From Bodo saltans (Eukaryota; Euglenozoa; Kinetoplastea; Eubodonida; Bodonidae), in contig CYKH01001164.1 in assembly GCA_001460835.1 (NCBI GenBank), positions 1-25,052 of the forward strand: 25,052 nucleotides of DNA. The letters run 5' to 3'. The notes below the pieces were generated by a model. It had not been told where the DNA came from. It did not search any database and saw only the letters and a program-made list of their open reading frames with translations. The position numbers and the translations under genes were made by a program. Positions 1,736 to 24,843 of this stretch are shown here, piece by piece. How positions within the stretch are numbered: the stretch's first letter is position 1; the number at the start of each line of letters is the position of its first letter.

Positions 1736-1796
1736 ATTGAAACAATGATCAGTAAGAGGCACATGTGTGTCATCGTTGAATGTTATTCTCACGTAG

Positions 1797-1835
1797 TTTT
1801 CTCGTCTGTGAATTAAATGTGCCAAAGTTAGTTAG
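1797..1835 (+). promoter_or_regulatory. Probable spliced-leader acceptor region for the CRT-like gene
   Basis: A short pyrimidine-rich run (ttttctcgtctg, 1797-1808) is followed by AG dinucleotides at 1826-1827, 1830-1831 and 1834-1835, just before the ATG at 1843. This is the weakest of the acceptor sites in the window. It favours the ATG at 1843 over the upstream in-frame ATG at 1780, which lies before the tract. Confidence 0.45.
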
Positions 1836-1842
1836 GTCACGC

Positions 1843-3051
1843 ATGCCCACCATCCGCGAGTTTCTGCATATTGATGCTTTCCTCGAGACGTACCGCGCAC
1901 TGACGTGGCGAGAGTTAGTCTTGATTATCGTTGCAGTTCTGATGGTCATCAGCGGCAATGCTGGTCAGCTGATTGTTCTCAACTTGTGGGTGGCACACAT
2001 GGGCCTCATCCCCCCACCTGAAACACCACTCTCTATCCTCACGATCTCTTCATCCACAATGGCAGTGTTCTTTATCGCCGCAATCCTCATTCGGGCTGCT
2101 TTGAACTGGAAGACCATTTCATTTCGATTCCTCTTTTCCACGAAGGGCCTCGTGCTTAGCGTTGTCATTGGCCTGTGCAACGCGTTGAACGGCGTGCTCT
2201 TGGTGTACGCCACGCCTTCCACATCTGAAATCCTTCAAGCACTACTCCTGTGCACACAAGTATTCTGGACGCTTGCGGGGTCAAAGCTCCTGCTCAGCGA
2301 CTCTCGCAGCATTCTCAACTTCCTTGTCATTGGATCGTTTCTTTGCGTTGCGGGCGGCATTGTGCTGGGGGCGTCGCCTACGTTCTCCCAGAGCAGCCCC
2401 ACCACCTCCAGCACCAAGTGGTGGACGCTCATCTTCGCGGCGAGCATGATTCCTGGTGCCTTGTACAACGTCTTTGCCTCCATGTACATGAGGGCCTTCA
2501 CTGCAGTGGACGAGCCAACGAAGGACGAGAACACTGAGGATGCGTATCCCCTTCTCGTAAACCAGACTGAGCCTGAAGATGTGCACGAGCGCTCTGACAG
2601 CACCACGGTAAAGCTCACCATGCTTGCCACGACGGGCTTAAGCCAGATGTTGTGGATGTTTGTTTTCATGCCCCTCAACGCTGCTCCGTGGTTCGGCTCG
2701 TCCGACAACCTCGCCGAGACGCGCGAGATGCTAAAGGATGGATGGAGCTGCGTGTTTCAAAGGGAGTTTGGCTGTACACGTGCGTATGTGTATTACATTG
2801 CGTTCAATGTCTCATACTTCGTGAACTATATTGGATCGGCGTACCTTAATCATTTCAGTGCGACGCTAAACTCCATGGTGACTCAATTGTCGGCTCCCAT
2901 TGCTGCCATCATCCTTCTCGTCGCACCATCGCTGAATGTGGGGGCGCAAGCTGTTGAAGTGGGGCCCAGCGTCGGTGCCATCATACTCCTGATGCTGGGA
3001 TCAGCGGTGTTTACGTTGTGGGAACAGGGAACACGAAAGAAAGTTCAATAA
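1843..3051 (+). CDS. CRT-like (chloroquine-resistance-transporter-like) drug/metabolite transporter
   Basis: A 402-residue multi-spanning membrane protein with about ten hydrophobic segments, matching the CRT-like family of the drug/metabolite transporter superfamily. Recognisable family features are an LNGVLLVYATPSTSEILQ-type segment, the IPGALYNVF element (compare the IPxALSxVYKE pattern in CRTs), FMPLNAAPWFG in the second half, and a Cys-containing luminal loop (SCVFQ...FGC). In CRT proteins that loop carries disulfide-bonded cysteines. Family members export peptides, amino acids or thiols from acidic vacuoles or plastids; the substrate here is unknown. A charged insert with many Asp and Glu lies between the two halves (about nt 2506-2600). 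The start at 1843 was preferred to 1780 because the acceptor tract lies between them. The family call is firm; substrate and membrane are inference. Confidence 0.85.
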   Translation: MPTIREFLHIDAFLETYRALTWRELVLIIVAVLMVISGNAGQLIVLNLWVAHMGLIPPPETPLSILTISSSTMAVFFIAAILIRAALNWKTISFRFLFSTKGLVLSVVIGLCNALNGVLLVYATPSTSEILQALLLCTQVFWTLAGSKLLLSDSRSILNFLVIGSFLCVAGGIVLGASPTFSQSSPTTSSTKWWTLIFAASMIPGALYNVFASMYMRAFTAVDEPTKDENTEDAYPLLVNQTEPEDVHERSDSTTVKLTMLATTGLSQMLWMFVFMPLNAAPWFGSSDNLAETREMLKDGWSCVFQREFGCTRAYVYYIAFNVSYFVNYIGSAYLNHFSATLNSMVTQLSAPIAAIILLVAPSLNVGAQAVEVGPSVGAIILLMLGSAVFTLWEQGTRKKVQ

Positions 3052-3240
3052 TTATTTCGTGCTTTGTATTCGAGCCACTTTGCACTCATTGGATCGCCGC
3101 GCGTGAATAAAAAATATTAGCCGATGTAATCACCTTGATTGGCTTCATTTTTCGCTTTCTTTCCCTCTTCGTTTTTACGTTGTGCGCTGCGTGTGCTATA
3201 AGGATGTCTGGGCATCATTTGAGCTTTTCACATGGCATTG

Positions 3241-3269
3241 CTCCTTTTTTTTCCTTTCTCTACATGTAG
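3241..3269 (+). promoter_or_regulatory. Spliced-leader acceptor (pyrimidine tract plus AG)
   Basis: A strong pyrimidine tract at 3241-3262 ends in AG at 3268-3269, only two bases before the ATG at 3272. It falls inside the longer in-frame ORF that begins at 3182, and so argues that the upstream 30 codons are not coding. Confidence 0.7.
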
Positions 3270-3271
3270 TA

Positions 3272-4939
3272 ATGAAGCATCGGTCTTCCAGCCGTGGTCC
3301 CAGCAGTCCGCTGTCACCAAAACCAACTGCAGCTCAGCAAGGTCAAGCTAGTACTGGGTGGGAGAAGCGTGTCACCAAAGCGACAGTCGTCGAGAAAGTT
3401 CTGGTGTTTACTCTCGCACACATCAAAGTCATTATTGTACTGTTTTCCGTCCTGCTCCTTTTAATCTTCAGCAACGAGGTGGAGCGCAGCATTCCTGTCG
3501 GCTTTATGGTCGACGACCCAGTCAGACCAGGGCATTTGTTCGACAAATCGCTCATCAAGACCAAACTACCCGTTGTGTTTGTCCCTGGGTTTATCACGAC
3601 TGCTCTTGAATTGTGGGAGGGTGACTTGTGTGCGGTTGGTGGCGCTTGGTCTCCTTTCCGTCAGCGAATGCTCAGCGCGCAATCATTTCTCACGATGCTG
3701 CGCAACCCCTCGTGCTTCCTTAGGCATTTTTCTCTTGATCCCAGGACTGCTGGGGATCCTGAAGGCGTCAAGGTACGTCCTGATAGCTCGTTCTCAAGCG
3801 CAGATTATTTAGTGTTTGGTTTTTGGGTGTGGGCCAAGCTCATCGTTAATCTTGCCGACATCGGCTACGACCCCAACACAATGTACATTGCTTCGTACGA
3901 CTGGCGACTAGACGCGGAAACAGCAGAGCGTCGCGACAAATATTTCTCACGGCTTCGGGCATATGTAGAAGCCTCGTTTGATGGTGATCGGTTTGTTTTG
4001 GTGGGACACAGCTATGGATCGTCTGTGATCCAAGAGTTCCTCTTGTGGGCTGACAACAGATCACCCGGATGGACTGAGACGTATGTGGACAGCATCTTTG
4101 ATATTGCAGGGCCTTTCCTGGGTGTGCCGAAGGCTTTTGGTGCACTCATTTCAGGAGAGGTGAAGGACACGGCACTGATGCCTAGTGCGCTGCGATACTT
4201 GCTTGACTCGCACATTGATAAGCCCGAGCGCACACGGGCGTTCAGGACATGGCCTTGCCTCACTGCACTTCTGCCGTCTGGTGGCGACTGTGTGTGGCCC
4301 TCTGTTCTCAATCTGACTGATTCTGCACATGTCTCGACAAATCTCAACGGATCCGCAGCATTGCACTTTTTGTCAGGACTGATGAACTCCACTGGGCACT
4401 CGTATAACGAACTGAACGTTCGGAATCGACTGCGTTCATTTGAAGCTCGATCTAGGCTCCCGCGTGCCCCATCAACGACTGTCTACTGTGTGTTCGGAAC
4501 TGGCCTCCCGAGCGAAACAGCGTACTCGTTTAAGCCTGAGGCGTATCGAGGCGAGGTGATGTGGGCGATTGACCCGGATGCCCACAATGACACGTGGACC
4601 CACCCCCTTCAGGGTCAGGGAACGTTGCGGTCCGGTGTTGGCCTTGTGGATGGGGATGGCACCGTCCCCCTCATCAGCCTGGGCTACCCCTGCAGATCGC
4701 CCAACGGATTTCAACAAGATGTGGGTCGAGTTGTGACATATGAAGTTCCTCATGCACAAAGTTCAGTGATGGACCTCCGTGGTGGGAGCGCTACCGCCGA
4801 CCATGTGGATATCATCGGCAACTACGATGTCATTTCTGCACTGTTGATGGTTGTGACTGGCAACGGGGCTGATGTTCACGACCGTATTTCCTCAAAACTC
4901 GATGAAATGGTCGCTGCTGTTGACAAATGCCGCGCCTAA
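3272..4939 (+). CDS. Phospholipid:diacylglycerol acyltransferase / LCAT-family acyltransferase
   Basis: A 555-residue protein of the LCAT/PDAT alpha/beta-hydrolase family. PDATs move an acyl group from a phospholipid to diacylglycerol to make triacylglycerol. An N-terminal membrane anchor (VIIVLFSVLLLLIF, about residues 55-70) is followed by a luminal catalytic domain, the arrangement of yeast Lro1. It contains the PVVFVPGF strand with the TTALELWEG oxyanion/lid region, YDWRLD, the nucleophile elbow GHSYGS with Ser247, then GDGTVP with Asp462, and His511 in ADHVD, which complete a plausible Ser-Asp-His triad. IAGPFLGVPKA is also family-typical. The start was chosen from the acceptor site two bases upstream. 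Plain LCAT-like phospholipase activity is an alternative, but the length and the anchor favour PDAT. Confidence 0.85.
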   Translation: MKHRSSSRGPSSPLSPKPTAAQQGQASTGWEKRVTKATVVEKVLVFTLAHIKVIIVLFSVLLLLIFSNEVERSIPVGFMVDDPVRPGHLFDKSLIKTKLPVVFVPGFITTALELWEGDLCAVGGAWSPFRQRMLSAQSFLTMLRNPSCFLRHFSLDPRTAGDPEGVKVRPDSSFSSADYLVFGFWVWAKLIVNLADIGYDPNTMYIASYDWRLDAETAERRDKYFSRLRAYVEASFDGDRFVLVGHSYGSSVIQEFLLWADNRSPGWTETYVDSIFDIAGPFLGVPKAFGALISGEVKDTALMPSALRYLLDSHIDKPERTRAFRTWPCLTALLPSGGDCVWPSVLNLTDSAHVSTNLNGSAALHFLSGLMNSTGHSYNELNVRNRLRSFEARSRLPRAPSTTVYCVFGTGLPSETAYSFKPEAYRGEVMWAIDPDAHNDTWTHPLQGQGTLRSGVGLVDGDGTVPLISLGYPCRSPNGFQQDVGRVVTYEVPHAQSSVMDLRGGSATADHVDIIGNYDVISALLMVVTGNGADVHDRISSKLDEMVAAVDKCRA

Positions 4940-5042
4940 ATTATTTGAAGGTCCTTTCACTGCTTGTCTCTCTTTGCTGATTTTTTCTCGTTTTCTGTCT
5001 TCGATGGATGTTCCTTGGTGATTGGTTGGTCATGCGTTCAAT

Positions 5043-5074
5043 GTTTCTCTCTCATCTCACGTTTTGGACAACAG
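5043..5074 (+). promoter_or_regulatory. Spliced-leader acceptor
   Basis: A pyrimidine tract (tttctctctcatctcac, from 5043) ends in AG at 5073-5074, 12 bases before the ATG at 5087. It supports the short ORF at 5087 rather than the in-frame upstream ATG at 4964. Confidence 0.65.
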
Positions 5075-5086
5075 TACTCTGATAAT

Positions 5087-5332
5087 ATGGACAAGTTACA
5101 TTTAGAACGGTTACTTGATGAGGGCGAGTCTCTCTTGCATGGCCGTGAAACAAAACCTGCACCCCAACGGCGCAGTGATATCATCGCAAACGCCGAACTA
5201 GCGCTTGCGAAGACGCAATTTCAAATTTTTCTGCGACCACGAAAAGCAGTATCTCAACTAACCAAGCCGCCGTCTCCAATCAGTTCGCCAAACGAGAGCG
5301 ATGCTTCTCTTCACACTACAAGTAGACATTGA
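5087..5332 (+). CDS. Small hypothetical protein (81 aa)
   Basis: A short ORF of 81 codons with no recognised domain. The first half is charged and probably helical (DKLHLERLLDEGESLL). The second half contains a Pro- and Ser-rich segment (TKPPSPISSPN) and looks disordered. It has its own acceptor site upstream and is followed at 5436 by the next gene after a separate T-rich tract. This spacing makes a real small gene more likely than noise. No homology can be named from the sequence alone. The in-frame extension back to 4964 reads through the pyrimidine tract and was not included. Confidence 0.5.
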   Translation: MDKLHLERLLDEGESLLHGRETKPAPQRRSDIIANAELALAKTQFQIFLRPRKAVSQLTKPPSPISSPNESDASLHTTSRH

Positions 5333-5393
5333 CACATTCACTAACACCGACTTTATGATTTGACTTGCACTAGGTGAATGTTGCAGAAATAAA

Positions 5394-5424
5394 TATTTTT
5401 GTTTTGTGTTGTATTGATGTGTAG
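5394..5424 (+). promoter_or_regulatory. Spliced-leader acceptor (T/G-rich)
   Basis: A T-rich tract from 5394 ends in gtag, with AG at 5423-5424, 11 bases before the ATG at 5436. Confidence 0.6.
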
Positions 5425-5435
5425 ATTGCTGCCTA

Positions 5436-7853
5436 ATGTTGAAAGATGCTGAAGAGTCATTCGCCGATGTTCTCAAATATCGCAGAGCAGAGCTGCCGGA
5501 GCTAGCGACTATCTCGTATCTTGACTACATGGGCAGCGGCCTCGCACCTAAAGCCGTGCGTTGCTCGAGCACTTCCCTGATGTGCAATCCGCACAGCCTG
5601 CACAGCCTCGGGCACGCAGCTTCAGTTGAAGTTCGCGCTGCTCGGCACCAGACTGAGATGTTTTTCGAAGCTGCAGAGGAGTACGATCTTGTCTTTACAA
5701 GTGGATGCACAAGTTCACTGCATTTAGTTGGCAGCCTCATTCCTTTCGGAAGCTCAGGTTGCGTGTTCATGCATCCATTGGCGCACAACTCGCTGTTGGG
5801 CGTTCGCGAGTTCGTCTCGTCTGACCGCTATTTCTGTGTTCGGGATGCGAGTACAGCAACATCTTTGATTGACCTGCACGCAAGCACCACTGATATGAAC
5901 CTTTTGTGTGTTCCGGCAGAATGTAACCTCTCAGGAGCAAGGTTGGATTTTGCATCGTTTGTTGGTGCAGTTCACAGCAGTGTCACTAGAGAAGTGTTGA
6001 TTGTTGTGGACGGCGCTGCTATCGCCGGGAAGGCTCCCGTCACATTGGACGGAAGCGGCATCGACTTCTTCGCATTCAGTTTCTACAAAATGTTTGGAGC
6101 CCCAACTGGTCTCGGTGGACTGTTTGTGAAAAAGGGCCGTCCGCAGGAGATGCTCATGTCACATAAAAAGTACTTTGGTGGTGGGACAGTGTCGTTCAAT
6201 GATCACACAAAGCACGGCAGCCACCACCTACGTTCCGCCTTCACAGAAGCGATGGAAGATGGAACACAAAACTTTTACGGCATTGCGCAAGTGCGCCAAG
6301 GATTTCGCGCGCTGGACTCTTTAGGGGGCGTGACTGATATCAGTCATCGCATTCAGTACCTCCGAACATATTGCGTCGACGCCCTTCAACACCTCCGTCA
6401 CCGCAACGGTGCCCCACTTATCCTGGTGTACCATGCTCCGTCTACAAGTCTTCCCATCGTGTCGTGGGGCAGCTCTGTTGCCTTCGCTGTGCTCGAGCAA
6501 GATGGAACAGTTATTGGTCACGCGCTCACGGAGAAACTCCTTGCAGGTCTTAAGGTCTACGTTCGTGGGGGGTGTATGTGCAACCCAGGAGCGTGCGCAG
6601 AGTTCGTAGGCTACAGCGCCGAACTCATGACTGAAGCTCGCAATGCTGGTCACCAGTGTGGCGACGAGATGGACGTTCTCGATGGAAAACCTTTGGGCTG
6701 TGTCAGGGCATCCTTTGGTGCGTCGTCGTTGCCCTTAGACGTGGATAGGCTAGTTGCAGCACTCGCGCAATGTTTCTTGCGCGATGAGACAAAGCCTGAA
6801 CTTGTGCAATCCAGTTCCGCCTTGAGACTGCGCAAGATCATTCTCTACCCCCTCAAAGGAATGATGGGAGTATCGGTTGACACTTGGCCGCTGCAGACGA
6901 ATGGTTTAGCGTTTGATCGCGAATGGATGCTGATAGATCAGACGAGTGGCACGCCTGTTGCACCAAAGCGGTTTGCTGTTATGTCAACATTCGAAGTATC
7001 GCTAGATTGGCAGCTCAATGTACTCACAGTGCAGCATAAGGACAAAGTGCCCATTCACATCGTCATTGACGAAGACCGGCAATGCTGGATACATAACTCT
7101 TTACGCTGTACCGTTGCTCCTGAAACGAAAGCAGTGAAGCTGAAAAACCGCACATTACCAACGTATCGAACGTACGAAGAAGCCGCCGATCAATGGTTTT
7201 CATCCGTGCTTGGAATCCCTGTGCAACTTGCGCGAAATTTGCCCTCCGCAGAAGAAACCCTATCCAACTCAGCTGCTTTGCTCGTCGTACACGAAGGATC
7301 TCACCATCAAGTTCTGAGGCATATGAACGCGGTGGACAGACCGTTCGTCTCGTTGGCATCCTATCGGCCCAACCTTGTTGTGACAGGGGCTGCGCCATCG
7401 AACAACGGAAGCTCTGAGCGTTCCAGAGGTGCATCGCCTTTCGTTGAGAACTTATGGCGCTCCCTGTCAATAGGAACCGTCCAACTTGTTGCCACTGGAC
7501 CGTGTAAACGGTGCCAGCAGGTCAATGTTGGAGCTGGTGAGCTAAAGCACGAACCCCTAGCGTCCATCAGCAGCCTGTGTCGTCGCAGCGGGCTGACTGA
7601 AATTTTGTTTGGCCAGCTCTTTGGCATCAAGGCGGTAACTGCTGCTCCGGTTGTCACAACTGAATTTGCTGTGCCCTGGACATTGCCGCTTGTGGCCCTC
7701 GGTGTAGCATTGGCACTCAGGTTGTCCCCGCTTGCAATTCCAGCACTAGCATGCGCAAAGATTGTCAAGACCGTCGCTCAACGGCCGTTGCTGCTGGCAG
7801 AAATCGATGGAGTTCTTATTCACGTTGGCATGCGCGTGCGAGTGGGTGAGTGA
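5436..7853 (+). CDS. Molybdenum cofactor sulfurase (aminotransferase class V + MOSC)
   Basis: An 805-residue protein with the two-domain layout of MOCOS/ABA3. This enzyme moves sulfur from L-cysteine to the molybdenum cofactor of xanthine dehydrogenase/aldehyde oxidase-type enzymes. The N-terminal NifS-like domain (about 1-450) opens with YLDYMGSG, has the NPHS and TSGCTSSL motifs, the PLP lysine Lys218 in FSFYKMFG, and the persulfide-region cysteines Cys380 and Cys382 in GGCMCNPGAC. The C-terminal MOSC domain begins near residue 465 (RKIILYPLKG) and includes FDREWMLID, RPNLVV and GPCKRCQQ. Oddly, between FGQLFGI (ending about 731) and the final strand IDGVLIHVG (from about 790) lies an extra stretch of some 57 residues, with a strongly hydrophobic core at about 745-777. 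The family call is firm; the insertion's role is unknown. Confidence 0.93.
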   Translation: MLKDAEESFADVLKYRRAELPELATISYLDYMGSGLAPKAVRCSSTSLMCNPHSLHSLGHAASVEVRAARHQTEMFFEAAEEYDLVFTSGCTSSLHLVGSLIPFGSSGCVFMHPLAHNSLLGVREFVSSDRYFCVRDASTATSLIDLHASTTDMNLLCVPAECNLSGARLDFASFVGAVHSSVTREVLIVVDGAAIAGKAPVTLDGSGIDFFAFSFYKMFGAPTGLGGLFVKKGRPQEMLMSHKKYFGGGTVSFNDHTKHGSHHLRSAFTEAMEDGTQNFYGIAQVRQGFRALDSLGGVTDISHRIQYLRTYCVDALQHLRHRNGAPLILVYHAPSTSLPIVSWGSSVAFAVLEQDGTVIGHALTEKLLAGLKVYVRGGCMCNPGACAEFVGYSAELMTEARNAGHQCGDEMDVLDGKPLGCVRASFGASSLPLDVDRLVAALAQCFLRDETKPELVQSSSALRLRKIILYPLKGMMGVSVDTWPLQTNGLAFDREWMLIDQTSGTPVAPKRFAVMSTFEVSLDWQLNVLTVQHKDKVPIHIVIDEDRQCWIHNSLRCTVAPETKAVKLKNRTLPTYRTYEEAADQWFSSVLGIPVQLARNLPSAEETLSNSAALLVVHEGSHHQVLRHMNAVDRPFVSLASYRPNLVVTGAAPSNNGSSERSRGASPFVENLWRSLSIGTVQLVATGPCKRCQQVNVGAGELKHEPLASISSLCRRSGLTEILFGQLFGIKAVTAAPVVTTEFAVPWTLPLVALGVALALRLSPLAIPALACAKIVKTVAQRPLLLAEIDGVLIHVGMRVRVGE

Positions 7854-7926
7854 GTCAGATACTTAGCAAAAAAATACACCTTTATGTATGGTTGGTATTG
7901 CGGAAACTGTCTTGAATCAAAAACTC

Positions 7927-7953
7927 ATTTATTTTGCTTTTCATTCATTGAAG
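7927..7953 (+). promoter_or_regulatory. Spliced-leader acceptor
   Basis: A T-rich tract (tttattttgcttttcattcattg) ends in AG at 7952-7953. The predicted leader is 12 bases long and contains ATGTGATGG, a start-stop pair at 7961-7966 whose stop shares its last base with the main ATG at 7966. Confidence 0.65.
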
Positions 7954-7965
7954 TTCTTTGATGTG

Positions 7966-9432
7966 ATGGCGAGCCTTTTGCTACGACGTTGGGTTCCACA
8001 GGCGCGTGACGAAGTCTTTGCCGTCTTGGAGTACTGCACCACAAACAGCGTTGCCACGTCACTGTGGTTGTACGTGTTCTGGGCTCCTTGGTTGTATGAG
8101 ACGTTCGATGACAGCAACACGATCGTGGGGGCACTATCTGCAGTTAACGGAATTTTCGAAATCATTGGCGCAGTTGCTGGGGGTTATGCCTGTGACGCTG
8201 GGAAGTGGACAAAGCATTTCGTTGTGCGAACATCAATGGCAATTGGCCTGGTGGCGTTCTCGTTGCACCTTGCAGGGTTCCTTACTGGCACTCTCTGGAT
8301 TCTTGCAGTTGCGCAAGCTGTCCTTGGTCTTTTTATGGGACTTTCACTTTCCAGTGTGGAGGGTTTGATGGCAGATGTTGTCCCCTCAGGGAACAGAGAC
8401 TACATCTACTCCGTCAAGAGTTTTTTGGAAATGGCTGCTCCCCTTGTTGGATGCGTTGTATCTGTCACACTGATGCTGCTGCTAGGTAATCAATTTTCTC
8501 GGCCCATATTGGTCGCTGCCAACCTTGCAGGTCTGCTCGTGCAAACTGTTGGTGCAAGTAGAATGTATTGGTTTCTCCGAAACTTCCCAGTGCGAAACGC
8601 AGTAGCTGAACCTGAAGAACAGCAAGGAGTTATCGAAGGGACTACAACTCTCCCTGAAGAAGACACTCAACAACAGATCGTAACGCACGCTAGACTTCAG
8701 AGTTGTGGTGCGTGCGTGCCAATCACCAGGTTGCCTCATGTGATTGCTGTTCACGACACAGTATTGATTGTTGGCAGTGGCCTCACGACGATGTACTTTT
8801 CCTTGTTCATGATTCAAGCGTACCACATCTCACCAGTCACGACGGCGCTGTTGCAAGGTGCTTGTGGATTGTGCAGCGCATCGCTTGTCGCTCTCGTTGG
8901 TCGCGCGGGAGCCAGCAAGGGGAGAGCCTTGACAATATTTGTCGCGAAGCTTTCTGGGGCGCTGCTGCTACTCTTTATTGTGTGCGCCAATGGGACTTCG
9001 TTTGCACCGCTGCCGATTATGTTCGCAGCATATGCGCTGCGTTTTGGGTGCATGAACTGCTGTGCGGGGATCACGAGGTCATTGCTGATGGACATTGTGC
9101 CACCGTCACAACGTGCACGCTGGAGTGCTGTGGAGTCCCTTCAAAACGCAAGTTGGTCCGGGACAAGTGCAGTGGGTGGTATGGTGGCTGACCGTTACGG
9201 CTATGGAACAGCGTTCCTTGTCACGTTTGGATTTCATCTCACCTCTGCGTCTTTGTTGGTTCCTTGCTTGAATACAGACGACCGACCGTACCTTTTCAAA
9301 AAAGAGCCACAGGAGAACGTTGCGGTGGATGAGGAAGAAGCATCGACTTCAGAAACTCGCGATTCTGAACTGAAGGACTTGCCCGAGAAAGTTAACCTTC
9401 CTATCACACGCTCGTCGGACGAACTTCTGTAG
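7966..9432 (+). CDS. Major facilitator superfamily transporter
   Basis: A 488-residue membrane protein with two bundles of about six hydrophobic segments, separated by a charged central loop at about residues 210-245 (rich in Glu and Gln). MFS-like signs are GGYACDAG after TM2, an acidic-basic loop in the second half (DIVPPSQRARW, comparable to the DxxPxxxRG region), and GGMVADRYGYG near the end. The cytosolic C-terminal tail is acidic and Ser-rich. The substrate cannot be assigned. The ATG at 7966 was chosen because the acceptor AG at 7952-7953 lies downstream of the longer in-frame start at 7888. The family call is reasonably sure; a more remote MFS subfamily is possible because the canonical motif A is weak. 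Confidence 0.75.
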   Translation: MASLLLRRWVPQARDEVFAVLEYCTTNSVATSLWLYVFWAPWLYETFDDSNTIVGALSAVNGIFEIIGAVAGGYACDAGKWTKHFVVRTSMAIGLVAFSLHLAGFLTGTLWILAVAQAVLGLFMGLSLSSVEGLMADVVPSGNRDYIYSVKSFLEMAAPLVGCVVSVTLMLLLGNQFSRPILVAANLAGLLVQTVGASRMYWFLRNFPVRNAVAEPEEQQGVIEGTTTLPEEDTQQQIVTHARLQSCGACVPITRLPHVIAVHDTVLIVGSGLTTMYFSLFMIQAYHISPVTTALLQGACGLCSASLVALVGRAGASKGRALTIFVAKLSGALLLLFIVCANGTSFAPLPIMFAAYALRFGCMNCCAGITRSLLMDIVPPSQRARWSAVESLQNASWSGTSAVGGMVADRYGYGTAFLVTFGFHLTSASLLVPCLNTDDRPYLFKKEPQENVAVDEEEASTSETRDSELKDLPEKVNLPITRSSDELL

Positions 9433-9590
9433 TTCCTTTTTTTTTTTCTATATTTGTTCAAGCGTCAATCGACGCTGGCTTCCTAAACCTCGCACATTTA
9501 GTTGCTACATTCACTCGTGTAATGCTACATTGTTGCTTGAACATTGTGTGAACTGCATGCATCTGAGTTCTCTCAGCTGGTCACGACAAA

Positions 9591-9611
9591 TTTCACATTT
9601 CTCTTACAAAG
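9591..9611 (+). promoter_or_regulatory. Spliced-leader acceptor
   Basis: A pyrimidine-rich run (tttcacatttctcttac) ends in AG at 9610-9611, 19 bases before the ATG at 9631. It places the upstream in-frame ATG at 9544 outside the mRNA. Confidence 0.6.
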
Positions 9612-9630
9612 GTCTTCAAATACGTTTTTG

Positions 9631-10452
9631 ATGTCTACCCTCGAGTCTGGAATATCTGCCGGGGATATTGTCGTGCAAGCCTTTCATGAAGCTGTCAGCG
9701 TAGCGCAGAAACACTTTCGCGATTGTGAGACAACATTCCTGAAGGATGAACTTCTGATCCGAGAGCGTCTTGTTCTTCTTGACAAAGTAGTTTCGAATGC
9801 CACAGAGGAGCGGAGAGTGTTAGAGGTGCAGCTTCAAGATGCTCGTACGCAATCTGCCGTTGCTAAGAAGAAAGGTACTATTTGCAGCACTGAAGTTCAG
9901 CGAGTGAACAATCTCCTCACACAACAACTCGCAGAACTTGATTTGCACGAGCAACGTATTGCATCTCAACAAGATGCGGCAAAGGCGAAACTGGAAGAAA
10001 TTGCAGCCGTTGCTGCTGCCCTAGAAGAGCGATTAACTGCTGCAATGGAAAGTGAAAAGCAAGTTGAGGACGTTGAGCGTCTGTTATTTCATAAAGAGCG
10101 GGACTATGACACTGCCAAACGAGAAATGCAAATTCTCGAACGCGAAGTGGAAGAAAAACGAAAGTCACTTGAGAAGAAAGAGTCGAGCATTTCTTCATGG
10201 ATTCGAGCACTCGACAACCGTGAAGCCGACCTGACCTCGTTCCAGCAAAAGTTTCACGAAGATCTCCAACGAATTGAAAAACAAGAGCAACTACGCAATC
10301 CTGCGCTTGCCCATGCCGCGTCGCTGTCACAACGTGCAGTGATGGACGACCACGGCATGACCATTGATAGAGATGAGGATGACGAGTCCCTCCACGGCAT
10401 GACCATTGATAGAGATGAGGATGACGAGTCCCTTGAGGATGATTCTGATTAG
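9631..10452 (+). CDS. Coiled-coil protein with acidic repeated tail
   Basis: A 273-residue protein of unrecognised family. Most of it (about residues 20-215) is Glu-, Lys- and Gln-rich with heptad spacing, predicting a long coiled coil interrupted by a short Arg/Trp region (ISSWIRALDNRE). The C-terminus is acidic and contains a perfect-looking 14-residue tandem duplication, HGMTIDRDEDDESL, followed by EDDSD. It may be a structural or cytoskeleton-associated protein, but that rests only on composition. The start at 9631 follows an acceptor site. The stop lies about 120 bases before the next gene. Confidence 0.7.
   Translation: MSTLESGISAGDIVVQAFHEAVSVAQKHFRDCETTFLKDELLIRERLVLLDKVVSNATEERRVLEVQLQDARTQSAVAKKKGTICSTEVQRVNNLLTQQLAELDLHEQRIASQQDAAKAKLEEIAAVAAALEERLTAAMESEKQVEDVERLLFHKERDYDTAKREMQILEREVEEKRKSLEKKESSISSWIRALDNREADLTSFQQKFHEDLQRIEKQEQLRNPALAHAASLSQRAVMDDHGMTIDRDEDDESLHGMTIDRDEDDESLEDDSD
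10351..10434 (+). repeat. 42-bp tandem duplication in coding sequence
   Basis: Two copies of a 42-bp unit at 10351-10392 and 10393-10434 differ only at the last base (c versus t). Each encodes HGMTIDRDEDDESL in frame. The near identity suggests a recent slippage or unequal-exchange event in the acidic tail of the coiled-coil protein. Confidence 0.95.
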
Positions 10453-18906: not shown

Positions 18907-21900
18907 ATGCCTGCCAGTAGACGATTGTTTTTCCGAGTGGGAGCAGTTGCCCTCATGATTTTATTGGTGACTAATTTCTTGGAGCTTCGAAGGACTTTCT
19001 CGCCTTGGAACGATGAGCAACTGAAAGAGCCTGTGAATACACGACGTTGGCACTCCTCCCAATCCACTCTCCCCAAACTAATTCTTATCAGCCCAACGAA
19101 TCGGCCTTACTACCTTACCCGTCAGTTACATTTTGTGCTCCCCCTGCGCAATTGCTTTGACGTGCGATGGTTTATCATTCATCGCGTTGAACCTGAGGTG
19201 ACAGCCTTCGCACCTGCGTTTCGTGAGCAGTTTCCTTGGATCGATGAAGTGCGGACGTACAACAACGACTCTAGCTATGGAGGTGATGAGCGCAACTTTG
19301 GTCGAGAATTAGCCATCAACAGCACCAACGATGATGCCATGGTTTACTTTCTTGATGACGACAACATCATGCCTGACCTATGCAAAGTGGTGAACACACG
19401 CACGCTGAACCTTCAAACGTTGTATTACGCCGATCAGTTTCATTGCGATAAGCTGCGGCTGCCAACAACAGAGAAGAACTGGGCGGAATACTGGAACAAA
19501 ACGTCTATCTTCGAGAACCAGCTCAAGTACAAAATGGACACGGCGAGTTTTTTGATTCCGCTTGCGTCGTTGCGCCGATCTCGGCACGTTCTATGGGGCC
19601 TTCGCGCGGTCTCTGACACTCCATTCTTTGCGGCTGTCCTTAGCATTTGGTTGGAGTACCGTGGTCCACGTTTCGTCAAGCGTCTTCCCGAGGTCCAATT
19701 TACGTACAACACGCTTAGTGACCGCAATGGCTGCCTTCGAAAGCCGTGGAGCAAATCGATGCTTCGGGAGAGCTACGCAGAATACAAAGACCTTGTTGGG
19801 AACATGACCGCGTACTTTGACGGATTTCCTGTTGTTCCTCATGACTACGCTCACATCTTAAGCACCATACGTCGAGCACTTCCTGCAGACCAACCGATGA
19901 CGTACGTTGAGCTTGGCGTTGGTCTTGGCGCCACATCGTTGCTGATGTCCCGACACGAGCTTCCAACGAATGTGATCGGAGTTGACACATTCGCATCGCC
20001 GCAGCAGAAAAACAAAGCAACCAAGCTGCAATTTGCCTTTCAAGGCAAGGGCTCCATCGACTGGGTTCAAGGTGCACCCCAAGATGTCCTTGCCACCGTG
20101 AAGAGCATTGTGGCTTCGAAGCTTCGCGTTTCTAAGATTGACATACTTCTCATCAACGCCGATCACTCCCCTGCCTCTGTGATCGCTGACTTCGAGGCGT
20201 ACAGTCCACTTGTTGCGAAGGGGGGCTTTGTCGTGTTTGATGAGTTCGAAGATACTCTACGAATTGACGGAGGCGTTCGGAAAGCACTGATGATGCTAAT
20301 AGAACAGAAGCGCATCAGGCTAGATCAGTACGACGTCATCGGGACAGTAAAGAATGTTGCTCGTGCCGGTCCTACAACTCCCGATCCAGACAACCGCGAT
20401 TGGCCTTCTTGTTCATCAAAGGAATTTATCCTTCGAAAAAAGCGTTGGGCGCAAGAGCCGCCACCCCTCCCCAAACTTATTCTTCTCACTGTCACCACGC
20501 AGCCGCACTATCTTCCCAGAATACTGCCCACTGTCCAAGCACTACTCACATGCTTTGATGTCAAGTGGATCATTGTCCACCGTGTAGAGCCGGGAGTCAC
20601 TTCATATGCCGCAGCGTTTCGCAATCATTTCAGTTGGATTCTGGAAACTCGTGCCTTCAGCGACGACCACAGTGGGACTCATGAGCGATCGCTAGGAATT
20701 GAGTTGGCGCTCAATACGACCAGAGATGATGCACTCGTCTACTTCTTAGACGAAGACAACACGATGCCTGACTTGTGCAGCGTTGTCAACACCGCAAAGG
20801 TTCACATGGAAACCCTTTACTACGCTGATCAGGCACGCTGCGGCGAATTGAGGCTCAACACTCTGAAGCTTGACCTCACTGACTACAAAAACTTTTCATA
20901 CATCTATGAGACTCAGGTAAGAGATCAGCTACATAACGGAAGTTTTCTAGTACCATTGATTGCCCTCCGCCACCTGCAGACTAGGCCAACACTGCCACAT
21001 GAGCTCGTGGTCATTGGAGATTTCTTCACAACGTTGATTTATTTGTGGTCGGATGCCAAAGGTCCTGACTATGTCAAAAGATTGCCAGGCGTTAGCTTTA
21101 ACTACAAGCATGTGAATGATCATAACGGCTGCCAGAGGCATCCTTGGAGGCGAAGTACATTGGATGAGAGTCTCGAAGATTATCGGCAACTCTTGGGCAC
21201 AATGACAAGCCAACGAGAGCAAACGTCGAAGGAGCACCTTTCCGATTTGACTGTCGTTGTGCCGCACGAATATGGGCATTTCCTCAGCGCTCTGCGCTGG
21301 AGTTTGCCTTCTGCTACTCCAGCGACGTATGTAGAGCTCGGCGTTGGCATCGGTGCCACATCATTACTGATGTCACGACACTCGCTCCTTACAAATGTTA
21401 TTGGTGTTGACACATTTCAAGCAGCTCGACAGCGAAAAGATGCTGATGCGATGCGTGCGTCACTGAAGGGCAAAGGGTCCATGAATTGGATCACAGCAGA
21501 TCCATTGGCAGGAGCAGCAGATGTGAGAAATGCGCTTACTCAAAAACTAAACACAACAGCTGTCGATATTCTGATGATCAATGGTGACCATTCGACAACA
21601 GCTGTCATTGCCTATTACGAACAATATTCTCCACTTGTCGTAGAAGGTGGATTTCTCGTGTTCGATGAGTACCTCGACAACACATTGGGGGGCGATGGTG
21701 TGCGCAAAGCGTTGATGATCCTCATGGGGGACGGTCGAATAAATGCTTCTCAATACGAATTTATCGGATCAATCTCCAACGAAGCAAGAGCAGGAACGTT
21801 TCTAACTGCGGACCCTGACCAGCGTGATTGGCCACAGGAAATGTCGAAATTGTTTGTTCTCCGGCGCAAGCCCAATGAAACTTCTCCTGTGACACGTCCA

Positions 21901-24843
21901 ATGCTTATCTTGATTACGAACACAACAGCTGGGAGAAGCTTTTATCTTTTACGAAGTCTTCCAGCAGTCTTGGCATTGAGAGATTGCTTTGATGTTCGCT
22001 GGATTGTTGTCCATCGCATTGATAATGACGTTGCAGCATTTGCACCTACCTTTCGAGATCATTTTTCCTGGATTTCTGAAGTTCGAGCGTACAGCAACGA
22101 AGACGCCTCAGGTGTCTATGAACGCAATATGGGTGTGGACATGGCCATAAAAGTCACTCGAGGCAATGCGCTGGTCTATTTTCTATCAGACGACAATACA
22201 CCACCAGACTTGTGCTCCACGTTAACCAATACTGTAGTGTTGCCAGAAACTCTCTACTACGCCGATCTTGGTCACTGTGGGCTCGTACGAGAACCCTCGC
22301 GCCACAGGAACTGGACGGAGTTCAACAATCAGAAGTCTGTTCTTGAGAAGCAAATACAAGGCAAAATGGATTGGGGTAATTTTCTCTTCCCGCTTGAACT
22401 TCTCCAATCAGCCCGTTCTGTGAACACGTCGTTGCCAAGTCCAATTTACCTCACGACATTGGTGACAATGTGGATTGCTCAGAATGGTCCAGACTTCATC
22501 AAGCGGATGCCAAACGTTCGCTTTCATTTCGAGCAGCTAAATGATCATTATGGATGCACAAGAAAGCCGTGGAGCACGTCACTGTTTTCTGCAAGTCTAG
22601 ATGATTATCGGCAGCTTCTGGGAAACATGACTGCTCAACGAGAGCAAAGCTCTCGGGACAGACTTTCTGACTTTGAGACGGTGGTTCCCCACGAGTACGG
22701 TCACATTCTCTCGTCCATTCGATGGAGCCTTTCATCGCTTGATCACGCAACGTACTTGGAGATCGGAGTTGGCCTCGGCGCGACGTCCATGTTGATGTCC
22801 CGCCACCCGCTGCTGACAAACGTTATTGGGGTTGACCCCTTCTCGTTGCGAAGTCAGAAAGAAGATGCTGATGCGCTCCGCGCCACTTTTCAAGGGCAGG
22901 GTACCATCAGTTGGATTCAAAGTGGTATCAATAGTTCCTTCAAGCATGTGGAGCGAACTTTGGGTGCGTTGAGAGTGCCGCATGTAGACATTTTACTCAT
23001 CAACGTGGAGCGCTCCCCTCACACCGTCATCGAGGCTTGGGACTTGTTTTCACCGCTAGTGGGAATTGGTGGGTTTGTTGTATTCGATGAGTACTTGGAC
23101 AACACGATTGGTGTCAGAAAAGCGATCATGACGTTAATTGAAGACGGTCGCATCAATGCAAAAGATTTCGACGTCATCGGTGCCGTTGCCAATGACGCAC
23201 ATGCAGGGCCGTACTTGACACCTGACCCTGATCAACGTGACTGGCCCCTTGGGACTTCTAAAGTCTTCGTACTCAGGCGGAGACGATGGCCAAATGAGCC
23301 GCAGCCGCAGCAGAAACTTATCGCCATCACAACGACCAATCGGTCACACTACCTTACGCGAACACTGCCTTTCGTTATGGGCCTTCGAAACTGCTTCGAT
23401 GTACGATGGATAATTGTGCATCAATCGGACCCCGACGCACCGTCTGTCGTCGCCCCTGCTTTTAGGTCACAGTTTTGGTGGGTAACAGAAGTGATGCAAA
23501 GTTATGATGCTGACAGGAAAACGCACGATCGACGCGTTGGCATAGAAGCCGCTCTCAACGTCACACTCGACGATGCACTAGTGTATTTCTTGGATGATGA
23601 CACGATCATCCCTTACCTGTGCTCAACGCTTCCAGTAACTGCATCATTGCCGGAAAGGCTCCACTTTGGAGACCAAGCTCAATGCGGAAAGATTCGCCAA
23701 CGATCGAACGACATGAAGTGGTCCGACTACATGAACATTGAGTCCATGCACAAGTCCCAACTTCAAGGTAGAATGAACATCGGAAATTTTATTGTGCCGT
23801 TGGCGTCCCTTCGCCTCACTTCGCCGGAGCAGCGTGAGCTACCCGGAACAATGCTGATAGCAACACTCATCAGCATTTGGATCCAGCATCGAGGAGTGGA
23901 TGCGGTTCGTCGACTCCCAAACATTCGGTTTCATCTCAACCATCTTGGTGAACGCAGTGGTTGTCTAAAAAATCCGTTCAGCAAATCATTGCTCAAAGAA
24001 AGTTTGGAAGATTACAGGAAACTCCTTGGATTCATGTCGAAACACCGCGAAGAACCGCAAACAAAACTGTCAGAAACTTTTGTCGTTGTCCCTCACGAAT
24101 ACGGTTTCATTGTGAGTGCCATTCGCTGGATTCTACCAGCAGTAGTCCCAGCAACTTATGTCGAGGTTGGCATTGGTCTTGGGGCAACATCGCTGCTTAT
24201 GTCTCGCCATACACTTCCAACCAACGTGATTGGGGTGGACAAATTCTCTATTCCGAATCAACGCGAAGATGCTGAGGCCCTTCGCTCCGCATTCCAAGGG
24301 AAAGGTTCTATTGAGTGGATTGACGGTGAATCCCAAACTTCATTTCAGCTCGTGCAAGACTCGCTTCAAAAGGTACAACATGCGAAAATCGATATTCTCA
24401 TGATCAACAGCGACCATACTACTGCATCGGTGATGGCAGACTTCGAACTGTACTCGCCACTTGTTGCAGATGGTGGATACATCGTGTTCGATGAATGCTT
24501 TGATTCCGTCTCGGTCGGATACGGCGTGCGCGCAGCAATCATGCAACTCCTTGACTCAAGGGCACGTGGTTTCGAAGTGATTGGACCGTTAGAGAATGAT
24601 GCGGATGCAGCGCTGTGTCTTACCAATGACCCACATCTGCGTGACTGGCCCAAAGACGTCACGAAGACGTTCATTTTGCGGAAAAGAAACTCCACAGAAT
24701 CACCAACCGGGTGGCGAGACCGTGCACTTGCAGTTAGAAGAGAGCGCATGACGAAGAAGCCAGTAAGGGAAATGAAGTCGTCTCACATGAAACAGGGGAA
24801 AAACATGGGACATTCTCTCAAACTCAAGATGCAATACCTGTAA
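18907..24843 (+). CDS. Four-unit tandem glycosyltransferase + SAM methyltransferase, type II membrane protein
   Basis: A 1978-residue protein. A short basic N-terminus and one hydrophobic segment (about residues 8-27) form a type II signal anchor, so the rest is probably in the Golgi/ER lumen. Four units of about 470 residues follow. Each begins with a GT-A-like glycosyltransferase domain: a (K)LI(L/A)I strand at Leu58, Leu524, Leu1000 and Leu1471, then CFDV(R/K)W, then an acidic DxD-type motif at residues 150-153 (DDDN), 615-618 (DEDN), 1094-1097 (SDDN) and 1563-1566 (DDDT). It then has a class I methyltransferase domain: VVPH(E/D)Y, then Y(V/L)E(L/I/V)G(V/I)G(L/I)GATS from Tyr333, Tyr808, Tyr1283 and Tyr1751, a GVD strand, DIL(L/M)IN and VFDE. 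The first half resembles GT43 glucuronyltransferases and the second resembles the CmcI/Methyltransf_24 group. The inference is that it builds and O-methylates a glycan. The acceptor and the sugar are unknown. Confidence 0.8.
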   Translation: MPASRRLFFRVGAVALMILLVTNFLELRRTFSPWNDEQLKEPVNTRRWHSSQSTLPKLILISPTNRPYYLTRQLHFVLPLRNCFDVRWFIIHRVEPEVTAFAPAFREQFPWIDEVRTYNNDSSYGGDERNFGRELAINSTNDDAMVYFLDDDNIMPDLCKVVNTRTLNLQTLYYADQFHCDKLRLPTTEKNWAEYWNKTSIFENQLKYKMDTASFLIPLASLRRSRHVLWGLRAVSDTPFFAAVLSIWLEYRGPRFVKRLPEVQFTYNTLSDRNGCLRKPWSKSMLRESYAEYKDLVGNMTAYFDGFPVVPHDYAHILSTIRRALPADQPMTYVELGVGLGATSLLMSRHELPTNVIGVDTFASPQQKNKATKLQFAFQGKGSIDWVQGAPQDVLATVKSIVASKLRVSKIDILLINADHSPASVIADFEAYSPLVAKGGFVVFDEFEDTLRIDGGVRKALMMLIEQKRIRLDQYDVIGTVKNVARAGPTTPDPDNRDWPSCSSKEFILRKKRWAQEPPPLPKLILLTVTTQPHYLPRILPTVQALLTCFDVKWIIVHRVEPGVTSYAAAFRNHFSWILETRAFSDDHSGTHERSLGIELALNTTRDDALVYFLDEDNTMPDLCSVVNTAKVHMETLYYADQARCGELRLNTLKLDLTDYKNFSYIYETQVRDQLHNGSFLVPLIALRHLQTRPTLPHELVVIGDFFTTLIYLWSDAKGPDYVKRLPGVSFNYKHVNDHNGCQRHPWRRSTLDESLEDYRQLLGTMTSQREQTSKEHLSDLTVVVPHEYGHFLSALRWSLPSATPATYVELGVGIGATSLLMSRHSLLTNVIGVDTFQAARQRKDADAMRASLKGKGSMNWITADPLAGAADVRNALTQKLNTTAVDILMINGDHSTTAVIAYYEQYSPLVVEGGFLVFDEYLDNTLGGDGVRKALMILMGDGRINASQYEFIGSISNEARAGTFLTADPDQRDWPQEMSKLFVLRRKPNETSPVTRPMLILITNTTAGRSFYLLRSLPAVLALRDCFDVRWIVVHRIDNDVAAFAPTFRDHFSWISEVRAYSNEDASGVYERNMGVDMAIKVTRGNALVYFLSDDNTPPDLCSTLTNTVVLPETLYYADLGHCGLVREPSRHRNWTEFNNQKSVLEKQIQGKMDWGNFLFPLELLQSARSVNTSLPSPIYLTTLVTMWIAQNGPDFIKRMPNVRFHFEQLNDHYGCTRKPWSTSLFSASLDDYRQLLGNMTAQREQSSRDRLSDFETVVPHEYGHILSSIRWSLSSLDHATYLEIGVGLGATSMLMSRHPLLTNVIGVDPFSLRSQKEDADALRATFQGQGTISWIQSGINSSFKHVERTLGALRVPHVDILLINVERSPHTVIEAWDLFSPLVGIGGFVVFDEYLDNTIGVRKAIMTLIEDGRINAKDFDVIGAVANDAHAGPYLTPDPDQRDWPLGTSKVFVLRRRRWPNEPQPQQKLIAITTTNRSHYLTRTLPFVMGLRNCFDVRWIIVHQSDPDAPSVVAPAFRSQFWWVTEVMQSYDADRKTHDRRVGIEAALNVTLDDALVYFLDDDTIIPYLCSTLPVTASLPERLHFGDQAQCGKIRQRSNDMKWSDYMNIESMHKSQLQGRMNIGNFIVPLASLRLTSPEQRELPGTMLIATLISIWIQHRGVDAVRRLPNIRFHLNHLGERSGCLKNPFSKSLLKESLEDYRKLLGFMSKHREEPQTKLSETFVVVPHEYGFIVSAIRWILPAVVPATYVEVGIGLGATSLLMSRHTLPTNVIGVDKFSIPNQREDAEALRSAFQGKGSIEWIDGESQTSFQLVQDSLQKVQHAKIDILMINSDHTTASVMADFELYSPLVADGGYIVFDECFDSVSVGYGVRAAIMQLLDSRARGFEVIGPLENDADAALCLTNDPHLRDWPKDVTKTFILRKRNSTESPTGWRDRALAVRRERMTKKPVREMKSSHMKQGKNMGHSLKLKMQYL
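19069..24690 (+). repeat. Four tandem protein-level repeats of about 470 residues
   Basis: Approximate units are 19069-20448, 20467-21870, 21898-23289 and 23308-24690. Spacing between matching methyltransferase motifs is 475, 475 and 468 residues. Spacing between glycosyltransferase starts is 466, 476 and 471. The DNA has diverged while protein motifs are kept, so the duplications are old. The linker before each methyltransferase half is similar in units 2 and 3 (both contain QREQ(T/S)S followed by LSD) and shorter in unit 1, which suggests units 2 and 3 are the closest pair. Confidence 0.85.

Follow-up and report, generated by a model that had tools for sequence, protein, structure and literature searches.

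A single gene of Bodo saltans (positions 18907-24843, + strand) encodes a polypeptide in which four units of about 470 residues follow one another behind one N-terminal anchor, each unit consisting of a glycosyltransferase (GT) half of the GT-A type and then a class-I methyltransferase (MT) half. The gene lies in the 25,052-nucleotide stretch of contig CYKH01001164.1 analysed here (the window), and no larger member was found in its family, which comprises at least six genes. The motifs of the protein suggest a single enzyme carrying worn extra copies rather than a four-step line. We consider it an even call that sugar addition takes place at one site only, with methylation at as many as three sites after it, in units 1, 2 and 4.

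The gene is one uninterrupted open reading frame of 1978 codons, which starts with ATG and has zero internal stops. Profiles derived from this protein's GT and MT halves, circular as domain evidence and used for setting borders only, place the GT halves at residues 55-303, 521-770, 997-1245 and 1470-1714 and the MT halves at residues 305-513, 776-988, 1251-1460 and 1719-1928, in strict GT-MT alternation. In Pfam, Methyltransf_24 (PF13578) matched four stretches of the protein (E 5.1e-39; 133.8 bits against a cut-off of 26.3), and Glyco_transf_43 (PF03360) reached 27.7 bits over the whole protein against a cut-off of 27, with no single stretch passing. A phmmer search of the PDB with the full-length protein gave no match at E<=1. 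Residues 7-25 (18925-18981) form the sole strong hydrophobic stretch (Kyte-Doolittle 2.15; best value beyond residue 55, 1.63), and the linkers between units are short and anchor-free. By hydropathy, a short cytosolic tail and a single N-terminal anchor give the layout of a Golgi type-II glycosyltransferase, and this anchor suggests a Golgi location. The protein ends in a basic tail of 50 residues (24691-24840), and a telomeric TTAGGG repeat closes the contig (25001-25052), 157 bases past the stop codon. The first-pass annotation had described a single polypeptide with four GT-MT repeats and one anchor, and the open frame, the Pfam matches and the hydropathy bear this out. The units are 47-51% identical to one another whereas their third codon positions are only 31-37% identical, which points to old duplications and to a protein held by selection; a divergence of about 50% also excludes identical repeats produced by the assembly.

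At least five further loci of the family are present in the same genome (29.3 Mb searched, 934 contigs): C594, C654 and C559 carry one unit each, and C875 and C547 carry two each (a and b). A hydrophobic stretch precedes the first GT half in all six members (Kyte-Doolittle 1.79-2.91, C594 being the weakest). The second MT half of C875 (L011 1918-5658) is broken by in-frame stops (one TAG and four TAA within the match); it does not enter the MT alignment or the MT counts, and the second GT half was retained. Two Methyltransf_24 genes, C514 and C905, matched neither the family GT nor the family MT profile within the stretches fetched, and PF03360 had no match in the genome, a result that carries no information since the controls likewise gave none. 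In the trees, units 1-4 cluster together (support 96/96 for whole units, 89/96 for GT halves) with units 2-4 nested inside (99/99 and 97/94), and C875b and C547b form a separate clade (GT support 100/100); the MT tree alone did not resolve units 1-4 as a clade. Beside C559 lie other large ORFs (L014 1453-9900) that by eye resemble anchored or secreted proteins.

The kinetoplastid nature of the host, already assumed at first pass, is supported by KMP11, which we take to be a kinetoplastid marker: it is encoded in this genome (E 1.1e-51) and matched in 0 of 14 control genomes. The start of the spliced leader, with at most one mismatch allowed, was not found in the genome; we put little weight on this because repeated words may escape the search and because KMP11 was detected at that E value. 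The larger ORFs of the window lie on the + strand, and the GC3 of the 18907-24843 ORF (0.516) is in line with the values of nine ORFs nearby (0.46-0.65) and thus gives no sign of recent foreign origin. The neighbours at 1780-9432 encode a CRT-like transporter, an LCAT-type acyltransferase, an Aminotran_5 + MOSC protein (molybdenum cofactor sulfurase-like) and an MFS transporter. Two to three direct repeats of about 208-232 bases (121-801) extend into the 5' part of ORF 503-1735 (410 residues, without a Pfam match), and a perfect 42-base double repeat (10350-10433) lies at the end of the 302-residue ORF 9544-10452. In a search of the genome, the five-repeat telomere pattern occurred only in C465 and C55. 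A scan of the window for bacterial-type promoters (3 against 6.5 expected) and terminators (8 against 6.1) was disregarded.

The GT half of unit 1 (19069-19815) is modelled as a GT-A fold whose nearest relatives are the human GT43 glucuronyltransferases (GlcAT enzymes). AlphaFold gave a pLDDT of 82 and a pTM of 0.83 for the whole of unit 1 (alignment of 10 units), and 88 and 0.85 for its GT half (14 sequences including three phage GTs). When the GT model was compared with the PDB by Foldseek, ranks 1-3 were GlcAT-P chains (E 4.2e-8 to 2.3e-7, TM 0.58, rmsd about 7), followed by CHSY3-CHPF1, GlcAT-P, GlcAT-S, WrtF, SpsA, TarP and GlcAT-I. The whole unit retrieved mostly methyltransferases (SpnK, SafC, MycE, MeT1 and COMT, also DOT1L), with the CHSY3-CHPF1 chondroitin synthase at rank 21; as modelled, the MT half of unit 1 falls with the Mg-dependent O-methyltransferases MycE, MeT1 and COMT. 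Both folds predicted at first pass, GT-A and Rossmann methyltransferase, were thus found in unit 1. GlcAT-P, GlcAT-S and GlcAT-I share with the unit 1 GT half the GT-A fold and an ERN/QRN-DDDN core followed by a later acidic position, but identity over the Foldseek alignments is 10-16%, the rmsd is about 7-9, and the strict GT43 motifs are not reproduced. We know of no methyltransferase in the human GlcAT enzymes.

At the sequence level, the GT half is best called GT43-like, not GT43. Among the GT halves taken alone, 5/11 matched GT43 in Pfam at E<=1 (best 2.5e-4); unit 1 is not among these and matches no Pfam family at this threshold. The sole PDB match of the GT profile up to E 10 was GlcAT-P over ERN-DDDN, at an E of 0.58 that is not significant alone. 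The published motif scheme defines GT43 membership by at least three of eight motifs (PMC4449007), a number reached by none of the four window units. Strict motifs, counted anywhere, number two in unit 1 (one of them, DDDN, in place), one in unit 2, none in units 3 and 4 and two in each phage GT. For ordered partial matches, the score was reached by 2, 11, 7 and 66 of 100 shuffles for units 1 to 4, by none for C594, C875a, C547a and each of the three phage GTs, and by 4, 24, 33 and 37 for C654, C875b, C547b and C559. Ordered matching thus surpasses the shuffles in unit 1 and in the six GTs with none, less clearly in C654 and units 3 and 2, and does not do so in unit 4, C875b, C547b and C559. 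C875a and C547a reach three motifs if position is ignored; these counts were set aside because ordered placement makes no use of their motif-3 matches. The study behind the motif scheme dismissed four weak Trypanosoma cruzi matches as not GT43-like (PMC4449007). Since strict GT43 membership is not supported, glucuronic acid, suggested at first pass as the sugar, is not supported either.

Among the four window units, the complete GT signature (ERN, DDDN and a downstream Asp) is present in unit 1 only. Here and below, residues are assigned from alignments at 23-55% identity to unit 1. Unit 1 carries ERN, DDDN (residues 150-153; 19354-19365) and V-S-D-T at the downstream Asp (residue 237; 19615-19617), and its GT half is predicted to be active. 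The GT halves of unit 2 (20467-21216; HERS, DEDN, an Asp two places off register), unit 3 (21895-22641; YERN kept, SDDN, no downstream Asp) and unit 4 (23314-24048; HDRR, DDDT, no downstream Asp) are probably inactive, although these losses are read from the alignment and the Asp of unit 2 might serve from two positions away. Part of the earlier description of a DxD-type enzyme in each repeat stands, in that some form of the acidic triad occurs in all four; it is DDD in units 1 and 4, the following Asn being Thr in unit 4, but DED in unit 2 and SDD in unit 3. In the rest of the family, C594, C875a, C547a and C654 read ERN, DDDN and [AS]D, the sole unit of C559 departs from this (ERN, DKDN, ID), and C875b (WPVD, DEEN) and C547b (WPMD, DENN) lack the downstream Asp; the phage GTs read QRN, DDDN and AD. 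The downstream Asp is therefore found in 6/6 sole or first units and in 3/3 aligned phage GTs, and in register in 0/5 later units. As units 2-4 and C875b/C547b lie in separate clades, two separate losses are the simplest reading. Position 281 of GlcAT-I is presumably the general base. By alignment, the downstream Asp is taken as this position, which lies within published motif 7 (PMC4449007, table); PMC4132061 names Glu227 instead, and a clear counterpart of that residue was not found in the GT halves of the family.

The GT halves of units 2-4 have also evolved unevenly with respect to unit 1. GT branch lengths are 0.28 for unit 1, the shortest, and 0.61, 0.51 and 0.65 for units 2 to 4, against 0.44, 0.41, 0.49 and 0.53 for the MT halves of units 1 to 4. 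In Tajima relative-rate tests against unit 1 with three outgroups, GT halves 2-4 were faster in 8/9 comparisons at p<0.05, the exception being unit 2 with outgroup C547a (p 0.32); MT halves were faster than MT 1 in 2/9, both with the long-branched C594 as outgroup. The nine tests per half share data and are not independent.

All ten MT halves of the family match Methyltransf_24 at E<=1. The SAM-binding motif E-x-G is present in 10/10, and all four window units have both E-x-G (ELGVGLG in unit 1) and GVD, the acidic residue after strand 2. In the MycE type and ThnM1, Asp275 and His278 belong to the metal/active site and Mg is held by Asp275 and Asp304, according to the site description in PMC9275233. 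The Asp and His of the IDGDHS motif appear by spacing to match Asp275 and His278; in 88 non-identical outside rows of viral and prokaryote origin, about 20 of which stop short of the SAM motif, the Asp is present in 88/88 and the His in 84/88. The viral locus list behind these rows comprised the best 80 of 81 relatives, and the FDD pair in these rows, biased by the search pattern, was excluded from evidence. In the window, Asn replaces the metal-site Asp in each of the four units: INADHS in unit 1 (19822-20445; followed by FDEF), INGDHS in unit 2 (21232-21873), INVERS in unit 3 (22657-23286) and INSDHT in unit 4 (24061-24690). The His is kept in units 1, 2 and 4 and is Arg in unit 3, whose MT half is probably inactive; the pair of metal Asp and His of the Mg-dependent MycE type occurs in none of the window units (Asp 0/4). 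The second metal pair (DE) is kept in units 1, 2 and 4. Elsewhere in the family, the Asp/His sites read Asp/Tyr in C654, Ser/Glu in C594, Asn/Arg in C875a and C547a, Asn/Ser in C559 and, where the alignment is poor, Asp/Lys in C547b, so that the His is kept in 3/10 MT halves, all from the window gene. The window MTs thus resemble the Methyltransf_24/TylF/MycE/rhamnosyl-OMT type in family score, above cut-off in four stretches, and in fold matches, but differ from the Mg-dependent O-methyltransferases in the Asn at the Mg-ligand position and in being fused to a GT behind an anchor. Because this Asp is Asn in 4/4 units, the MT halves, predicted to bind SAM and of possible activity, may be weak or dead. 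The phage family phrog_2675, which matches MT halves of the sugar type at 1e-34, is labelled DNA methyltransferase, perhaps wrongly.

Gene pairs on viral contigs lend support to the coupling, proposed at first pass, of a GT43-like enzyme with such a methyltransferase. L017 is the single contig among L017-L097 that matches the family GT profile; at 4998-6145, it has a GT43-like frame and, downstream and overlapping with it, a Methyltransf_24 frame. The L017 GT found L125 and L126, which are near-copies, and L127 (38%), all with the same pair, and L208, found later, carries it as well. A viral scan with three GTs found 156 relatives, and the counts refer to the best 80 (L128-L207, query contigs included), with an MT profile that included the L017 and L125 MTs. 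An MT lies directly downstream with overlapping frames in 50/80 loci, upstream in two (L129 and L133), and is detected by profile in none of the other 28; after clustering, an adjacent MT is present in 13/17 clusters at 90% identity and 7/9 at 50%. By comparison, 2/293 other + strand frames of at least 150 residues in the same loci precede an MT, which argues that the two activities are linked elsewhere. The viral pair, perhaps a phage decoration module, has the same two enzyme types as a window unit, with the GT first, but consists of two separate genes, its GT frame is mostly about 180-200 residues long against about 249, and D-x-x-H, missing from the window MTs, is intact in the MTs of L017, L125, L127 and L208. 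Descent of the fusion directly from this pair is unsupported, the GT profile having matched only L017 among L017-L097. In the flanks fetched for those viral MT genes that score highest with the family (up to about 112 bits), no GT43-like neighbour was found, so that the pair may be a parallel and not the source. When unit 1 was compared with viral models by Foldseek, 25/50 among the matches listed align over at least 400 columns; with an rmsd above 14, these matches are a hint of GT-MT proteins but do not establish them. By eye, L045, L043, L047 and L055 have single ORFs from about 4890-4920 with Methyltransf_24 and then a glycosyltransferase, the reverse order. In prokaryote genomes, whole units found 26 loci, matching over the MT part, and GT halves gave 34 pattern matches of which none was confirmed. 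In the phages collection, the C654 unit found two records, again over the MT part, and the L188 viral-contig GT matched no record.

A GT and a sugar methyltransferase in one chain are already known from A064R of chlorovirus PBCV-1, whose MT methylates O-2 of a terminal rhamnose (PMC9614988). A064R resembles the window protein in this respect but, according to PMC9614988, is viral, 638 residues long and ordered GT-GT-MT, with one MT, no repeated units and two GT domains that differ from each other (D1 is retaining and uses Mn, D2 is inverting and works without a cation). GT-MT coupling can therefore work in one chain. PMC11231755 describes WbdD and Klebsiella ORF6-O7 as chain terminators of the methyltransferase-kinase type that stand next to GT modules or are fused to them. 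In the open-access literature searched (titles and starts of abstracts), no eukaryotic family with one, two or four tandem GT+MT units behind one anchor was found. IRX9 and IRX9L act in plant xylan synthesis, and we know of no methyltransferase fusion in them. Their GT43 domain is needed, yet residues catalytically essential elsewhere are dispensable (PMC4132061), so that a GT43 protein can persist without essential catalysis, much as proposed for the non-catalytic role of GT halves 2-4.

We propose that the members of the family are membrane enzymes of type II built by fusion of a GT43-like GT (GT-A, presumably inverting) with a metal-dependent sugar O-methyltransferase of the Methyltransf_24 type, one GT+MT unit being the basic working device. 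Within the secretory pathway, the GT would take a single sugar, for which glucuronic acid is one option among several, from a nucleotide donor and attach it to a glycan, and the MT would methylate a hydroxyl of the newly added or of a neighbouring sugar, perhaps capping the chain. In the 18907-24843 gene, the unit would have been duplicated to four copies, after which the catalytic signature survived in the N-terminal GT only. GT halves 2-4 would then have turned non-catalytic, serving in folding, spacing or acceptor binding, whereas the MT halves would have retained their SAM sites, and MT 1, 2 and/or 4 would methylate the product of GT 1 or its neighbour.

A serious contender, though one we hold to be rather doubtful, is that GT 1 is active and all MT halves are non-catalytic, binding SAM/SAH or acting as a scaffold, the protein being a plain GT with a long stalk. 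The Asn at the Mg-ligand position and the widespread decay of MT sites in the family speak for it; the His and DE pair kept in units 1, 2 and 4, the intact SAM motifs, the small number of tests in which MT halves outpace MT 1 (2/9) and the viral pair, which argues for joint use of both activities, speak against it. It is unlikely that GT 1 and three or four live MTs, or else all four pairs, act processively on one glycan within one Golgi polypeptide; of these two forms, one GT with several MTs is the more likely. If true, a single protein would set several O-methyl groups on a kinetoplastid surface glycan, and the literature searched describes no such machine for methylating glycans at multiple sites. 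A non-enzymatic surface or Golgi structural protein made of enzyme-like domains would fit the motif losses in both halves, the telomere-adjacent locus and the repeat amplification, but is improbable given that the unit 1 GT has ERN, DDDN and the downstream Asp and the shortest GT branch of the four. Quite improbable is the assembly line first proposed, in which four working pairs act in succession or on different acceptors: the SAM motif and some acidic triad persist in every unit and the frame has stayed open despite divergence to about 50% identity, but the complete GT signature is confined to unit 1, GT halves 2-4 evolve faster in 8/9 tests, and the MT metal Asp is absent from all four units and the His from unit 3. 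That separate genes were joined by the assembly or the gene model is barely credible, because only the contig-end location favours it, whereas one frame is open throughout, the units have diverged by about 50%, the linkers are short and carry no anchor, and two-unit paralogues occur on other contigs.

We thus continue to prefer a protein with a single site for sugar transfer and, after it, at most three sites for methylation. The viral GT43-like + methyltransferase pair is by itself a candidate two-enzyme decoration module. In this family, the parallel decay of a single half of a two-function unit, with retention of its partner, can be put to the test, and the prediction follows that a kinetoplastid makes O-methylated sugars.
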